A DNA stretch of 48,356 bases from an uncultured Clostridia bacterium (GTDB taxonomy: Bacteria; Bacillota; Clostridia; TANB77; CAG-508). Positions 13,171 to 48,328 of this stretch are shown here, piece after piece (position 1 is the stretch's first letter; every line of letters starts with the position of its first letter). Location of the stretch: assembly GCA_947599825.1 (NCBI GenBank), contig CANQFS010000007.1, forward strand, positions 1-48,356, given 5' to 3'. The notes below the pieces were generated by a model that was given only the letters and a program-made list of their open reading frames with translations, was not told the origin of the DNA and searched no databases. A program made the translations under genes and the position numbers.

Positions 13171-13728
13171 TTACTCTAGTTCTTGCATTTTTTTCTTAAC
13201 TTCTTTTAAGTCATTCCAAAATTCTATTTTTTTATTTTCATCTCGGAGAAGTGCTGCTGGGTGCCAAGTTGGCATATACATTATTTCTTTTTTCTCTATC
13301 CATTTTCCTCTTGCTGCTGTTATGCTATATTCTTTGCCTAAAATGTTTTTTAATGCTGTGCTTCCAAGTAGTACAATAATTTTGGGCTTTACAAGTAGAA
13401 CTTGATTTCTTAAATAGTCTAAGCATGCTGCGGCCTCGTCTTGCTCTGGAACACGGTTAGAAGGTGGTCTACATTTGACAATATTAGCAATATATAATTC
13501 TTCTCTATTTAGTCCTAAACCTGATAATGCTTTATTCATTAGTTGACCTGCTTTTCCTACAAAAGGCAAACCTTCTCTATCTTCGTCTGCTCCTGGACCT
13601 TCTCCTATTAGCATTACTTTTGCTTCTTTATTTCCTGTTCCAAATACAATATTGGTTCGATTTTGGCATAGTTTACATTTTTTACATTGCTTGATGCTTT
13701 CTTCTAGTTCTTCCCATGTTTCGTACAT
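13171..13728 (-). CDS. udg: Uracil-DNA glycosylase, family 4 (iron-sulfur)
   Basis: Removes uracil from DNA. The 185-residue length and motifs fit type-4 UDG: CKKCKLCQNRTNIVFG gives the first iron-sulfur cysteines, the active-site motif is GEGPGADEDREGLPFVG, then KCRPPSNRVP and CLDYL complete the cluster ligands. The C-terminal motif is TWHPAALLR, with the catalytic-loop His. A promoter TTGAAA-17-TATGAT (13770-13798) precedes it. With the OGG-type glycosylase nearby it forms a base-excision-repair set, although the two are not in one operon. Confidence 0.92.
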   Translation of the reverse strand: MYETWEELEESIKQCKKCKLCQNRTNIVFGTGNKEAKVMLIGEGPGADEDREGLPFVGKAGQLMNKALSGLGLNREELYIANIVKCRPPSNRVPEQDEAAACLDYLRNQVLLVKPKIIVLLGSTALKNILGKEYSITAARGKWIEKKEIMYMPTWHPAALLRDENKKIEFWNDLKEVKKKMQELE

Positions 13729-16776: not shown

Positions 16777-17661
16777 TTATGCTTCTCTTTTCCAGTAAAA
16801 TAAGTATTGTTGAGCAATTCCTGCTAGAGAACCAAATTTTTCGTGAGCAATTTTTTGGATTTCCTCTTTTTTTACTTTGGTTTCATCTGGCTTTTTGATG
16901 TATAGCTCATTCATTACTCTTCTTACCCATACATCTATTGGAAAGGCTTCCCATCTTTTTAGAGAAGAGAATAGTAAAATGCAGTCTGCTACTTTTGGTC
17001 CTACCCCTGGAAGTGTAAGCAATGTATTTCTTACTACTTCAAAATCTTTTTCTTGCTTTAGTTTTTCTAAGTCTACTTGCTTGGTTTGTATCATTTTTGT
17101 TGTTTCATATACTCTCACATCACGAAAGCCTAGTCCTAGGCTTCTTAAGTCTGCTATGCTTGCTTTTGAAAGTTCACTAGTTGTTGGAAAGGTGTAGTAA
17201 CTTTTATTTTCAAATATTATTTCTTTTCCATATGTTTTGGATATTCTTTCTATGATTCCTTTGATTCTTGGTATATTGTTATTTGCTGAAATAATAAATG
17301 AAATGATGGTTTCCCACAAATCTTGGTTTAAGATGCGTATGCCTTGACCATAAGAAATGCTTGTTTTCATGTTTTCATCTATATTAGATAAGGTTTGCTT
17401 GATTTTTTCATAGTCTGTTTGAAAATCAAAGTAATTTGTAACAAGTTCTTGTAAATTGTCTTCTCCTACACTTTTAAAAATTACATCTTGTCCTTCTTTT
17501 TTTACTTTTATTACATTATTTTTTACAACTCCAATGTAACTTCCATCTATTTGCTCATTCCACCTAAAACATTGCCCACATTCAAAAATGTCTTTTAGTT
17601 CAAAGGTGTTGCATTTTTGTATTTTATATATTTGCTCTTTTTCTTTCACTATTTTTCTCAT
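16777..17661 (-). CDS. ogg: 8-oxoguanine DNA glycosylase/AP lyase (OGG1 type)
   Basis: Removes oxidised guanine from DNA and cuts the abasic site. The N-terminal OGG domain is seen in FECGQCFRWNE. The HhH-GPD core has LPGVGPKVADCILLF, with the catalytic Lys, followed by PIDVWVRRV, which carries the catalytic Asp. The C-terminus AQQYLFYWKRE is typical of Clostridia members. The start is uncertain: a promoter TTGAAA-17-TATGAT (17681-17709) would begin transcription near 17674, so I use the ATG at 17661 (294 residues). Upstream TTG/ATG starts at 17709 and 17685 would lie within the promoter. It is divergent from the HD-GYP gene. Confidence 0.9.
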   Translation of the reverse strand: MRKIVKEKEQIYKIQKCNTFELKDIFECGQCFRWNEQIDGSYIGVVKNNVIKVKKEGQDVIFKSVGEDNLQELVTNYFDFQTDYEKIKQTLSNIDENMKTSISYGQGIRILNQDLWETIISFIISANNNIPRIKGIIERISKTYGKEIIFENKSYYTFPTTSELSKASIADLRSLGLGFRDVRVYETTKMIQTKQVDLEKLKQEKDFEVVRNTLLTLPGVGPKVADCILLFSSLKRWEAFPIDVWVRRVMNELYIKKPDETKVKKEEIQKIAHEKFGSLAGIAQQYLFYWKREA

Positions 17662-17680
17662 TCCTTCTTTATTTTCATTT

Positions 17681-17709
17681 ATCATAACATATTTTTTTGA
17701 CCTTTTCAA
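17681..17709 (-). promoter_or_regulatory. ogg promoter
   Basis: Minus strand: -35 TTGAAA (17704-17709), 17 bases, -10 TATGAT (17681-17686). It implies a very short leader of about 13 bases before the ATG at 17661. Confidence 0.45.
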
Positions 17710-43112: not shown

Positions 43113-43156
43113 AAAAGTCGTAAAAACATTGATATATCAATGTTTTTACGACTTTT
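43113..43156. terminator. 44-bp perfect palindrome, bidirectional terminator
   Basis: AAAAGTCGTAAAAACATTGATA is followed directly by its exact reverse complement and a T5 tail. It lies 124 bases after the stop of the HAM1-like gene and marks the left edge of the accessory genes. It could equally be a terminator or an element-end inverted repeat. Confidence 0.6.
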
Positions 43157-43279
43157 TCTTTGGAGGTGTGCTTTGGTTTTATATTTTTATGAGGTTAGTA
43201 ATATCAATACTTGCAAGGCATAGAATGTAAAAATTAATGTAGTTATAATGTAGTTTGAAAAGAGTTTTTATTATTATTT

Positions 43280-43870
43280 TTATATATTATTTACTATAAA
43301 ATCAATAACATCGTCTTCTTTATAATTTTCTTTGTTTTTATCTTCTTCCGTTAAATCAACAAAATATTTATTGCATTCTGGCATAATTGATATTGAATCT
43401 AATGGATAACCTGGGTTTCTTTTTTCACAAGGTCTATTTATAAAATAAAAATGACTTTTGCTCCAGCTATATTCTTTTGTTTCTTTACCATCATATATTA
43501 CCATTCCATATATCCATTTAGCTGTTAATCTTCCTCCATATTCATTGACCAGATTACAATAATACTCAATCATTTCATCATCATTTAGTTCCTTTCCGTT
43601 TATTCTTCTAACATGAGTCCCTGGCTGCTTTTCATCTGGTAATTCTTCTATATATAAATTATTATCCATTCCTATTGTTGTTATTTTGGTTTCATCATAA
43701 TATGCTTTTGCCTTTATATATGCATTTTCTATTGCATTTTTTCCTGTTTCTTCTGGCTTTATATTTATTCCTAAGTCTTTGATGGTTAATACTTCTATGT
43801 TTCTTTCTTTTAGTTTTTCTGCATATTTTTTTATTTTTGCTGGATTTGTTGTTGCAAATAATACTTTCAT
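43280..43870 (-). CDS. HAM1/RdgB-like nucleoside triphosphate pyrophosphatase
   Basis: A 196-residue protein of the Ham1/RdgB family, which hydrolyses damaged or non-canonical purine triphosphates (dITP, XTP) to monophosphates. Family landmarks appear in order: LFATTNPAKIKKYAEKL, ETGKNAIENAYIKAKAYY, GMDNNLYIEEL, PGTHVRRI, GYPLDSISI and KYFVDLTEEDKN. The usual catalytic DSG reads DNN, and the Ser-Ala-Arg region is HVRRI, so it is a divergent branch and specificity may differ. Its start overlaps the stop of the glycosylase-like gene (TAATG), so the two are translationally coupled. It lies on an accessory island carrying phage and plasmid genes. Confidence 0.75.
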   Translation of the reverse strand: MKVLFATTNPAKIKKYAEKLKERNIEVLTIKDLGINIKPEETGKNAIENAYIKAKAYYDETKITTIGMDNNLYIEELPDEKQPGTHVRRINGKELNDDEMIEYYCNLVNEYGGRLTAKWIYGMVIYDGKETKEYSWSKSHFYFINRPCEKRNPGYPLDSISIMPECNKYFVDLTEEDKNKENYKEDDVIDFIVNNI

Positions 43871-44232
43871 TATTTTACCTCCCTGAAACCATTCCTACTC
43901 CATAACCATAAAGGTGTATGTATATCTATTGGTTTGTATTTAGCTCCTTTAAATAATTCATTCCATCTATCAACTACTATGAGTTGAACATCATTGTTAT
44001 TTAATTCTTCATTACTTATTAATCCTAATTTGTATGTTGCTTGAATTACATGTGTATCTGGTGCAACTGTTAGGTGCTCAATATTTTTATATTTTCTATC
44101 AGTATATTGATATATTACATATAACCAATAGTTACATATTTTTGTTCCAGATAAATAAGGAAATTTCTTTTTATTTTCTTGTTGAATAAAATTTCTTATT
44201 TTATCAACATCATTATCTAATTGTTCAAACAT
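43870..44232 (-). CDS. HhH-GPD-like DNA glycosylase, C-terminal half
   Basis: A 120-residue reading frame. FPYLSGTKICNYWLYVIYQY matches the HhH motif of DNA glycosylases (compare PGVGPKVADCILLF in the ogg gene of this window), with Lys at the catalytic position. VAPDTHVIQATYKLGLI matches the motif with the catalytic Asp (PIDVWVRRV). The N-terminal helices of the fold are found in the upstream overlapping frame, so the protein is either split into two subunits or frameshifted at an A6 run (about 44228). Substrate unknown. It is followed, with one base overlap, by the HAM1-like gene. The assignment is by eye and needs structural confirmation. Confidence 0.5.
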   Translation of the reverse strand: MFEQLDNDVDKIRNFIQQENKKKFPYLSGTKICNYWLYVIYQYTDRKYKNIEHLTVAPDTHVIQATYKLGLISNEELNNNDVQLIVVDRWNELFKGAKYKPIDIHTPLWLWSRNGFREVK

Positions 44233-44480
44233 TTTTTAGGTTTAAATACAAATTTTGTCTCTTTATCATTATATGTCTCTAACGCACTTTGCCATAATTT
44301 ATATGAATTTCTCTGATAATTTGAAGCCATAGGTAATGTAAAATAAAGATAATTTTCTATTGATGATTTTTCTAAATGTGGATTTGCATCTTCAGGCATA
44401 ACTTCGCCACCAAGATTACCATTTTTCCATAAATTATATAAAATTTCAACTTTTTGTAGTATTTCTTCTTTATTATACAT
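44217..44480 (-). CDS. HhH-GPD-like DNA glycosylase, N-terminal half
   Basis: An 87-residue frame starting MYNKEEILQKVEILYNLW. IENYLYFTLPMASNYQRNSYKLWQSA looks like the helices that precede the HhH in this fold (compare DLWETIISFIISANNNIPR in ogg). It ends FVFKPKKCLNN, where a single-base shift in the A6 run would continue directly into the downstream frame at its MFEQL. I chose the ATG at 44480 because AGGTG precedes it; the longer frame would need a TTG. It is the first gene of a three-gene unit with the C-terminal half and the HAM1-like enzyme. Confidence 0.5.
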   Translation of the reverse strand: MYNKEEILQKVEILYNLWKNGNLGGEVMPEDANPHLEKSSIENYLYFTLPMASNYQRNSYKLWQSALETYNDKETKFVFKPKKCLNN

Positions 44481-44544
44481 AGCGCACCTCAATTATTATA
44501 CTACACCACAGAAAAAATTAAAATACTTAAATATAAAGGGGGTG

Positions 44545-45267
44545 TTAAAAATTAATGATTTTATTTATATTTTCTATAAAGTCTATTCCTTCTATCTTAT
44601 TAATTCCAAAACATTTTTTTCCTAAATCTTTGAGTGATGCTCCACAATGATAAAGCTCTTTGTTATCTATAATAATGAATCTATCATGAAATTTATCTGT
44701 TCGTGCTATTTTTAGTGTCCCATATTGCTCATTAAACTTCTTAATATCTAATTTTGTTAGATTACAATTTTGTGAAGTAAAAATAATTGCTTGGACATTT
44801 TTATTTTTCTTTTGTAGCATTTTAAGAATAGTATCGTCTATATAATTATCTATTATTACTATTTTACTTTGAGCTGTTTTTATAATATCAATTATTAATT
44901 CATAGCTATCCCATATTTGTCCTTTGAAAAATATTTTTTGTTTGAATTCTTGTTCTTTATTCTTTTGTAATTCATTAAATACTTGATTGAATTTATTATC
45001 ATGTTCTAATAATCTATATTCAACATTTGTTAATCTTTCAAAAACTTGTCCATTTATGGAAATAAATTTTCTCATTTCAACAAATGCATTCATTATGTTT
45101 ATACTTACTTGAACTGCAATTTCATTTTTTAATAGACCCGAAAGCATTGCTATACCTTGCTCTGTGAACACATAAGGAAGTTTACTTTTATTTCTCTTGC
45201 TATTCTCTTTTTTCTCATGCGGTCGCAAATTGCGACCGCATATCTTCGCTTTCCAATAAGGTCGCAA
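44545..45267 (-). CDS. ORF6N/PLD-like phage-type protein, C-terminal part after a frameshift
   Basis: From SKLPYVFTEQGIAMLSGLLKNE onward this is the second half of an ORF6N (phage antirepressor-like) DNA-binding domain, followed by a coiled coil (VFERLTNVEYRLLEHDNKFNQVF). A phospholipase-D-like domain follows: IVIIDNYIDDTILKML, ending HDRFIIIDNKELYHCGASLKDLGKK. A single HxR/K-type motif suggests it acts as a dimer or binds DNA. The first 30 residues are the shifted reading of the palindromic RSQ-coding stretch. The N-terminal half is in the other frame (45215-45529). Such proteins are typical of prophages and mobile elements. Confidence 0.75.
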   Translation of the reverse strand: MRPYWKAKICGRNLRPHEKKENSKRNKSKLPYVFTEQGIAMLSGLLKNEIAVQVSINIMNAFVEMRKFISINGQVFERLTNVEYRLLEHDNKFNQVFNELQKNKEQEFKQKIFFKGQIWDSYELIIDIIKTAQSKIVIIDNYIDDTILKMLQKKNKNVQAIIFTSQNCNLTKLDIKKFNEQYGTLKIARTDKFHDRFIIIDNKELYHCGASLKDLGKKCFGINKIEGIDFIENINKIINF

Positions 45268-45529
45268 TTTGCGACCTTAAACATGAAAACTCATCTTCCG
45301 TTAGCTGAAAACAAAAATTTTCTGGAAATCTTTCCTTATTTCTAGTAACTGTTTCATTTATTCTTTTAGTTTGATAATGATATAACATTGCTACGTCGCT
45401 ATCTAGCATAACTTGTTTTCCTCTAATGCAATAAATTAAATTCTTAATATCAACTGTTTTATATTTTACTAAATTTAATTCTTTATTTACTGGCTCAATA
45501 TTAGTGAGATTATTCATAAATAACTTCAT
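45215..45529 (-). CDS. ORF6N domain protein, N-terminal part before a frameshift
   Basis: A 104-residue frame with the ORF6N hallmark: YCIRGKQVMLDSDVAMLYHYQTKRINETVTRNKERFPENFCFQLTED split over residues 33-80 (key parts IRGKQVMLDSD and RNKERFPENFCFQL). It ends RSQIATLLESEDMRSQFATA and stops, where relatives continue into LPYVFTEQG; that continuation is in the neighbouring frame. The RSQIAT/RSQFAT codons are two palindromes. Intact relatives are about 300 residues, matching the sum of both parts. The ribosome site is AAGGAAGG. Confidence 0.75.
   Translation of the reverse strand: MKLFMNNLTNIEPVNKELNLVKYKTVDIKNLIYCIRGKQVMLDSDVAMLYHYQTKRINETVTRNKERFPENFCFQLTEDEFSCLRSQIATLLESEDMRSQFATA
45218..45240. 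repeat. GGTCGCAA palindrome 1 in ORF6N gene
   Basis: TGCGGTCGCAA-A-TTGCGACCGCA, perfect 11-bp arms. It encodes RSQFAT in the N-terminal frame, at the frameshift point. Confidence 0.85.
45257..45279. repeat. GGTCGCAA palindrome 2 in ORF6N gene
   Basis: TAAGGTCGCAA-T-TTGCGACCTTA, perfect 11-bp arms, encoding RSQIAT. Both palindromes share the GGTCGCAA/TTGCGACC core, so each can also pair with the other. Confidence 0.85.
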
Positions 45530-46936: not shown

Positions 46937-48328
46937 TCAAAATCTTGTATCATTTTTCTTTCTATTATTTTTACTACTGTTAACTTCATCTATTGTTTTT
47001 ACTTTTTTGTAAATTTTATTCGCAATTTCATTATCGTTGTCATCAAAAATACCATTCTTGTATAGGTCATCACTTACAATTTTATAGTTTTCGTCTTTAT
47101 CATAGCAAATTCTTTTATGAAAATGGCTCATAATATTATGCCAAAATCCTTTAAATTTCTGTAATTCTTGTTTTATCTTTTCTTTTTCAGTTTGTAATTT
47201 ATTTATAATTTTATCTTTTGTAGATAGTTCGCCTTTTAGATTATTTATTTCATCATCTTTCAACTCTAATTGATATTTAAGTGAACGATTTTCTTTTTCT
47301 ATTTCAAATGTAGAATGTTCAAAATCTTTAATTGCCAAATTTAAGTCATTTACACTTCTAACTGTTTCAGTTATATCTTTTACATCTTTTGTATATTTTT
47401 TTAGTTTCTGGACATCCTCGTTTGAAATAACCATATTATTTTTGTTGAGCTTAGTAGGTTTTAAATTGTCTAATATTTCATTTATATCTTTACTTGTATT
47501 ATCAAGTTTTTTAGTTTGATTATTAGCCTCAAGTAATTTTTGTTCTTTCTTTTCTTGTTGTTTTTTAATTTGTCTATAATCGCCCATATCTTTAATATTT
47601 ATATCTTGATTTCTACCTTTTTTCTTCTGTTTTAATAAAGAATGTTCTGAATAAACTTTATTATATGATTTTATACAACAAGCTCTCATTTCATCTTGTA
47701 ATTTTGTTAGAGTTTCTTTTGTAAACACCTTTGATTTAGCAGGTTGCTTTTTCATTCCTTTTTTGTAATCATCTTTTATTGGTACACCAACTAAATGTAA
47801 ATGAGGAGAGATTTCATCAAAATGTATTACTGCATTAGCAATTTTAAACTCTGGTACTATTTTCATTAAATCTTCTATTTGTTCTTTATATACATCTATC
47901 ATTCCCATTCTATAACTTGTATCTTTATCATTCCAAAAATCCATATCTCCAAGTTCAATTATAAACTCACAAGCTAAATCTTTTTGCTTGTCTTTTGATA
48001 TATGCTTAAAATAATCTTGTATTTTTCTATTATCACGACTTTGCTTTGCATTATATTCTATTCTTGCTTGTTCAAATTCTTGTAAATACAAGTTTTGAAC
48101 ATCTTTATATAAGTTATCTGTTCCATAGATAATACAAATATTTTCTCTATCATTATCATAATCTCTTAAATTGTGTTTATTTACTTTTGAAAGTTGAGTT
48201 GAATTTTGTATTCCATTATTTGAAAATGATGTTGTTTCTGATGGATTATTCTTTGCAATCTCTTTTGCTTTTGTTGTTTTATTTTTATCACTACCTAAGT
48301 GAATAGAATATGCTAATTCTTCGCTCAT
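46937..48328 (-). CDS. mobV: MobV-family relaxase (plasmid recombination/mobilization, Mob/Pre)
   Basis: A 463-residue relaxase that nicks an origin of transfer. The N-terminal half holds SYSIH-like start (LAYSIHLGSDKN), the KVNKHNLRDYD motif, and the metal-binding motif AVIHFDEISPHLHLVGVPI, the MobV HxDExxPHxH signature. VFTKETLTKLQDEM follows. The second half is a long coiled coil (ELKDDEINNLKGELSTKDKI) typical of Mob/Pre proteins. GGGAGG is the ribosome site; the origin of transfer usually lies just upstream, i.e. mostly beyond the window end. It shows that this end of the window is a mobilizable element or its remnant. Confidence 0.92.
   Translation of the reverse strand: MSEELAYSIHLGSDKNKTTKAKEIAKNNPSETTSFSNNGIQNSTQLSKVNKHNLRDYDNDRENICIIYGTDNLYKDVQNLYLQEFEQARIEYNAKQSRDNRKIQDYFKHISKDKQKDLACEFIIELGDMDFWNDKDTSYRMGMIDVYKEQIEDLMKIVPEFKIANAVIHFDEISPHLHLVGVPIKDDYKKGMKKQPAKSKVFTKETLTKLQDEMRACCIKSYNKVYSEHSLLKQKKKGRNQDINIKDMGDYRQIKKQQEKKEQKLLEANNQTKKLDNTSKDINEILDNLKPTKLNKNNMVISNEDVQKLKKYTKDVKDITETVRSVNDLNLAIKDFEHSTFEIEKENRSLKYQLELKDDEINNLKGELSTKDKIINKLQTEKEKIKQELQKFKGFWHNIMSHFHKRICYDKDENYKIVSDDLYKNGIFDDNDNEIANKIYKKVKTIDEVNSSKNNRKKNDTRF

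Follow-up and report, generated by a model that had tools for sequence, protein, structure and literature searches.

A broken HhH-GPD-fold glycosylase gene beside a divergent Ham1 gene in a Clostridia genome: a tentative case for a nucleotide-sanitation operon

Introduction

This report concerns two adjoining minus-strand genes in a stretch of 48,356 nucleotides from an uncultured Clostridia bacterium (assembly GCA_947599825.1, contig CANQFS010000007.1; the whole stretch is referred to as the window). The pair is tentatively read as a nucleotide-sanitation operon, carried at least in part by mobile elements, whose copy in the window has decayed. The first gene would encode an N-glycosylase of about 250 amino acids with a HhH-GPD fold, akin to Qng1 and AGOG but from a family without a name, and the second, starting at or beside the stop codon of the first, a pyrophosphatase of the Ham1 fold whose base-recognition motifs are altered. 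The Ham1 protein would cut an unwanted (deoxy)nucleoside triphosphate to the monophosphate, and the glycosylase, taking this mononucleotide as its putative substrate, would then strip off the base by means of a Lys/Asp pair, so that the nucleotide could not be rephosphorylated. Behind this reading stand a fold prediction, conservation of the catalytic residues, the order and recurrence of the genes and, in some loci, a mobile context.

Monophosphates are the products of Ham1-fold enzymes, DUF84 proteins, dUTPase and many Nudix enzymes. Qng1 and DNPH1 are precedents for the removal of bases from monophosphates. In its widest form, which is put forward with more reserve, the proposal is an undescribed two-step detoxification in which a Ham1 protein of new base specificity would make an odd nucleoside monophosphate and new mononucleotide N-glycosylases of the Qng1/AGOG type would strip its base, the glycosylase being interchangeable in cassettes with DUF84, dUTPase, Nudix, ASCH, UDG or Qng1 that mobile elements would distribute through gut Clostridia and Bacilli. 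A search of open-licence papers found neither the glycosylase family nor such an operon described. A preliminary description of this DNA had not recognised the combination as a known system.

Proteins with a HhH-GPD fold are usually taken as DNA repair enzymes, whereas this gut family looks more like a nucleotide glycosylase. Standing beside successive nucleotide-cleaning enzymes, it could reveal a general disposal route for unwanted nucleotides, and it offers a direct test of the substrate to which these accessory cassettes answer. There is nothing unusual in the broken copy; what is out of the ordinary is its family. The copy also carries a caution: what looks like a split enzyme in an assembled genome may be no more than a deletion.

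A glycosylase gene apparently broken by a deletion

Three overlapping minus-strand frames, already noted in the preliminary description, occupy the region together with a short repeat:

43280..43870, minus strand: Ham1/RdgB-fold nucleoside triphosphate pyrophosphatase-like protein of 196 amino acids, divergent subfamily, apparently intact
43870..44232, minus strand: C-terminal glycosylase remnant of 120 amino acids, with the catalytic Lys and Asp and a HTPLW motif (profile positions 127-246)
44217..44480, minus strand: N-terminal remnant of the same AGOG/Qng1-like glycosylase gene, 87 amino acids (profile positions 1-91; DNA alignment with genome G003)
44227..44236, strand not assigned: 10-bp (base pair) repeat, one copy left at the deletion junction (loci L084 and L090 hold two copies)

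The two glycosylase frames had been taken for the halves of a split, two-part enzyme. Judged from the sequence, they are instead the remnants of one gene of about 250 codons, left by a repeat-bounded deletion with a frameshift. The open reading frame (ORF) of the N-terminal remnant spans 44217-44492 (91 amino acids) with its first ATG at 44480, and the C-terminal remnant is 93% identical to part of a 253-amino-acid frame in G003, relative to which the window gene is 139 bp short in the DNA alignment. A 10-bp direct repeat stands in two copies exactly 139 bp apart in L084 and L090 and in a single copy, at the junction, in the window; because the window lacks the 139 bp between direct repeats that are present twice in its relatives, the break is best explained as a deletion and not as a natural split. 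About 45 core residues are lost and the frame is shifted. Since the missing stretch forms core helices in the predicted model of an intact homolog, the window copy is probably inactive, and with the glycosylase gene broken it is likely that only the Ham1 protein is made here. A split enzyme or a programmed frameshift is ruled out by the loss of some 45 core residues, which is more than the frame alone. An assembly error is a less likely cause of the apparent deletion: TGT frames are broken in G003 and G038 too, so that frame breaks do occur in these assemblies or genomes.

Searched singly, the 120- and 87-amino-acid pieces gave no Pfam or NCBIfam match and no usable PHROG match (two for the shorter piece, with E near 0.2). 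The C-terminal remnant has no visible Shine-Dalgarno sequence, and the Ham1 gene that follows has a good one of its own, its ATG sharing one base with the preceding stop (TAATG).

The intact glycosylase family

Among 95 related genomes the C-terminal remnant was matched in 10, one match being weak. Eight strong matches besides the window were found in this set, of which six lie in a single frame of about 250 amino acids; the other two (G076 and G054) are broken by small indels at sites different from the deletion in the window. A scan of GTDB genomes with a profile of the family, a procedure that favours whole gene copies, gave 154 relatives, and the locus counts below cover the best 80 of them. 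The glycosylase is one ORF in all 80 loci, 77 of which align over at least 235 of 247 residues; a reading of the two window frames as natural halves is not supported. Profile matches occurred in one of 398 genomes of the phylum and two of 291 of the class, the window's own genome included in both, and the distribution is therefore patchy. No Pfam or NCBIfam family reaches its cut-off for these proteins. Another decayed copy was seen at G674:C50:1739-1980, where profile parts 14-57 and 205-244 adjoin each other.

The HhH-GPD fold that had been proposed for the joined halves is supported by the model of an intact relative, on which the fold was tested: it is all-alpha and HhH-GPD in type, and it lies closer to Qng1 than to EndoIII, OGG and AGOG, so that in the comparison with OGG, AGOG and MutY the expected fold stood and the expected nearest neighbours did not. 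The Lys of SGTK (K160) and the Asp of VAPD (D188), picked out in the preliminary description, are real and invariant in 50/50 homologs and in 17/17 alignment rows, and D188 aligns with AGOG D172.

Qng1 (DUF2419, PF10343) is the best structural match to the intact glycosylase model. It too has a Lys and an Asp, known here from the titles of PDB mutant entries (K199C and D231N), and StDUF2419 shares with the glycosylase the pocket spacing [D/N/H]-x-x-x-W. The pocket residues of StDUF2419 include D298 and W302 (PMC11592518). The glycosylase differs in being about 70 residues shorter and in having an invariant His where StDUF2419 has Asp, a correspondence made by spacing and not by alignment. No Q_salvage (PF10343) match was obtained for three gut members, for the archaeal member L012 or for the glycosylase part of the fusion in L151.

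AGOG (PF09171) resembles the family in its fold, its catalytic Lys and Asp and an alignable D-x-x-x-W region. Even the best member, L012, scores 20.3 bits against a Pfam gathering score of 26.1, and the three gut glycosylases scanned gave no AGOG match up to E 10. Contacts of AGOG with 8-oxoguanine include Pab D208 and P172 (PMC9638937); the position of the former is His in 50/50 members of the glycosylase family and the Pro at D-2 is Ala in 50/50, in a comparison that covers these two contacts and uses an inferred numbering step from Pab to Pae.

DNPH1 offers a likeness of another kind. It is a deoxynucleoside monophosphate N-glycosidase that sanitises hydroxymethyl-deoxyuridine monophosphate (hmdUMP), the pool being cleaned by cutting the base off the monophosphate. 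Its fold differs from that of a HhH-GPD glycosylase.

The Ham1 protein

The window Ham1 protein matches Pfam PF01725 at 3.2e-17, reaching the gathering score, and E. coli RdgB at 1.6e-8; its DSG motif reads DNN in the alignment, as the preliminary description had it. With RdgB/HAM1 it shares the fold, N-x-x-K, E-E-T-G/E-N-A and the second Asp of DDSGL, and it differs in reading MDNNL for DDSGL and GYPLDS for FGYDP and in lacking SHR. Close variants of these motifs stand in the remaining aligned rows of the subfamily, none of which contains FGYDP or SHR, the motifs by which RdgB contacts the base. At 57.2 bits the protein is far under the TIGR00042 RdgB equivalog cut-off of 145.35. Its model has a predicted local distance difference test score (pLDDT) of 69.4, a middling confidence, and was therefore used for the fold only.

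Ham1 matches at E 1e-8 occur in 54 of the 95 relatives, the weaker rows resembling ordinary RdgB, and matches of at least 42% identity in 39. The window's genome (G000, 92% complete) has no PF01725 match besides the divergent Ham1 and no canonical RdgB; in G022 the divergent Ham1 is likewise the sole match listed. Among 37 genomes, 25 are listed with a strong match of canonical type (E <1e-47). The same-strand genes adjoining this subfamily (45 genes in 34 loci, two glycosylase neighbours excluded and no control set) include six NUDIX genes, two NT5C nucleotidases and one each of Maf, methyladenine glycosylase and NADAR.

Pairing of the two genes

The adjacency of glycosylase and HAM1 for which a neighbourhood survey had been suggested does recur: a Ham1 homolog lies directly 3' of the glycosylase in 9/80 loci. 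Both genes are apparently whole in seven of them (L084, L085, L086, L088, L089, L091 and L100; in L084 a contig edge removes the glycosylase start), and only a Ham1 fragment follows in L087 and L090. The contact between stop and start, from which translational coupling had been proposed, is kept in the 7/7 relatives inspected, where the Ham1 ATG falls within a 1-base overlap to a 1-base gap of the glycosylase stop and a GGAG-type Shine-Dalgarno sequence stands just upstream of it. A UDG-family gene comes third in 6/9 pair loci, after Ham1 in L085, L086, L088, L091 and L100 and after the Ham1 fragment in L087. The contig of L088 begins (positions 1-120) with a low-complexity poly-Pro translation that resembles a sequencing adapter.

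G003 is the opposite case to the window, with a whole glycosylase and a Ham1 that ends at 96 amino acids. The genes are about 2 kb apart in G038, with Nudix-like and HD-like genes between them (by eye), and about 10.5 kb apart in G054. A quick-method tree of the 80 glycosylases, which leaves 39 of its 76 inner branches open, requires at least three changes of the Ham1 neighbour state.

Other partners of the glycosylase

A downstream gene is present in 78/80 loci and lies on the same strand within 150 bp in 54. The families to which Pfam assigns these 54 genes include, beside general ones such as ABC transporters (3), Ham1 (8), HD (8), DUF84/NTPase_I-T (4), ASCH (3), Q_salvage (2), NUDIX (2) and UDG (2). 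Of 81 qualifying genes in the upstream or second-downstream position, 80 were scanned, an upstream ORF of great length being left out, and UDG accounts for 7. For 134 control genes lying four or more genes away (140 drawn from 388, six of which were dropped, five of them for length) the 25 most frequent families were listed, and these families do not appear there. By phmmer sorting, nucleotide and repair families (HD and DHH excluded) make up 23/54 close downstream genes and enter 31/80 operon runs, compared with 11/441 distant control ORFs (Nudix 5, ASCH 3, UDG 2, deoxyribosyltransferase-like 1), among which no Ham1, DUF84, Q_salvage or dUTPase was found; the queries were chosen from the neighbours themselves and the sorting leans towards them. 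The loci are interrelated, and the neighbour counts are therefore not independent.

The downstream label changes at least 36 times on the glycosylase tree, 'other' and 'none' being counted as labels. Partners in other loci include DUF84, dUTPase, Nudix, ASCH, an OGG-like protein and the queuosine-salvage protein Qng1. The last is fused or directly adjacent to the glycosylase in 4/80 loci, with both in one ORF in L151 (Qng1 6e-47); L147 and L103 appear by eye to be fusions too, with parts that resemble a methyltransferase and GNAT. The operon run in L096, L097 and L103 includes a Nuc_deoxyrib_tr-like gene (0.0071, under the cut-off). A second, OGG-like HhH protein lies downstream in L126 (6778-7548), L131, L162 and L128; L126 alone was scanned and gave Ogg-HhH at 2.3e-5, below the cut-off. 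In part of the bacterial order (L044-L047) the glycosylase stands instead beside a Fur-like regulator and a permease (by eye).

Mobile setting

The neighbouring phage-type and relaxase genes of the preliminary description were found close to the pair:

44545..45529 (44545-45267 and 45215-45529), minus strand: ORF6N-type gene in two frames, upstream of the glycosylase remnants
46937..48328, minus strand: MobV-type relaxase (Mob_Pre) of a presumed mobile element (Pfam PF01076, 4.5e-15)

The mobile setting which that description had proposed is borne out by relatives of the window MobV relaxase near the glycosylase in 5/80 loci. The one in L085 (1.3e-140; 79% DNA identity over 1.5 kb) lies 2 kb from an intact glycosylase-Ham1-UDG operon. 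Members of a cluster read by eye as serine recombinases are near the glycosylase in 7/80 loci, and an ORF6N homolog adjoins it in L090, on a contig of G003.

Alternative readings

The close rival of nucleotide sanitation is DNA repair, a somewhat doubtful but serious reading in which the glycosylase is a base-excision enzyme of the AGOG/OGG type and Ham1 keeps the matching damaged deoxynucleoside triphosphate out of the pool, a division of labour like that of MutT and MutM. The HhH-GPD fold and the invariant Lys/Asp pair suit it, as do the UDG-family third gene in 6/9 Ham1 loci, the OGG-like neighbours of the glycosylase and the methyladenine-glycosylase neighbour of Ham1 in other loci. Several observations weigh directly against nucleotide sanitation. 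The closest match at sequence level is AGOG, a DNA glycosylase (Pfam 3.9e-4 for L012, below the cut-off; PDB 1xqo E 0.092), and this weak match is to AGOG only, whereas hhalign gave no sequence link between the glycosylase and Qng1 (probability 0.1); Qng1 is the longer protein, which can raise its structural Z; the UDG and OGG-like partners also fit DNA repair; 71/80 loci have no Ham1; and the two genes show no striking co-occurrence, a Ham1-like match of at least 42% identity being present in 5/9 glycosylase genomes and in 34/86 others. DNA repair is in turn opposed by a nucleotide glycosylase as the best structural match, by the fusion to and adjacency with Qng1, and by the change of two AGOG 8-oxoguanine contacts (Asp to His, and Pro at D-2 to Ala). 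It is also unlikely that the genes share no pathway and are both accessory cargo, adjacent because small nucleotide enzymes are numerous on the mobile elements they share. Frequent changes of partner, the many genomes with Ham1 and no glycosylase, and the breakage of one gene of the pair in both same-genus genomes that hold it would agree with this; the conserved order with stop/start contact and the bias of the partners to one functional theme would not.

An anti-phage pair, which like the Brig1 glycosylase or the HAM1-containing KomBC would detect modified phage bases or nucleotides or destroy them, is improbable and the least supported of the main readings. KomBC shows that the HAM1 fold can serve defence, and Kongming KomBC shares with the pair the use of a HAM1-fold protein; it differs in that inspection by eye of the opening ORF residues in seven pair loci brought up no SIR2-like partner. 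PADLOC returned nothing for Ham1 or the HD protein; its only matches, partial and weak, were of one glycosylase to a type IIG restriction enzyme model (4.5e-4) and of one UDG (0.003). Among the families close downstream, those of nucleotide and repair enzymes are the most frequent. A search of 50,697 phage records with the C-terminal remnant gave no match, nor did the family in the viral_contigs scan, and a phage origin was ruled against on these grounds; a Ham1 relative (38%) does occur in a short unannotated faecal phage record. Since the closest solved structures are those of Qng1 and not of OGG, AGOG or MutY, the likely substrate shifts from phage DNA bases to a nucleotide, DNA being the less likely one, and a defence role, as suggested in the preliminary description by an action on modified phage bases, is not supported. 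PADLOC has no strong match to the pair. Very improbable is a role in queuosine salvage with the glycosylase as a second queuine-releasing enzyme. The Qng1-like fold, the Qng1 fusion and the presence of TGT in 9/9 glycosylase genomes tested would fit, but TGT is near universal (14/14 controls), the fusion already has a Qng1 domain, and Ham1, UDG and dUTPase are not queuosine genes. A Q_salvage search found no match in the window's own genome, and its repetition with a positive genome included matched that one only (1/10).

Other features of the window

The ORF6N-type gene gives Pfam ORF6N at 4.9e-25 in the frame 45215-45529 and at 7.7e-5, below the cut-off, in the frame 44545-45267, and it matches the PADLOC candidate models PDC-S05. 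The overlap of its two frames contains repeated palindromic GGTCGCAAATTGCGACC-like DNA which encodes repeated RSQ(I/F)AT peptides. Separate OGG-like and UDG-like genes were seen by eye elsewhere in the window, at 16777-17709 and 13171-13728 respectively. Beyond the end of the Ham1 gene one further element was noted by eye:

43113..43158: terminator-like inverted repeat of 46 bp with a T run behind it, lying between the genes for Ham1 and a DUF11-repeat protein
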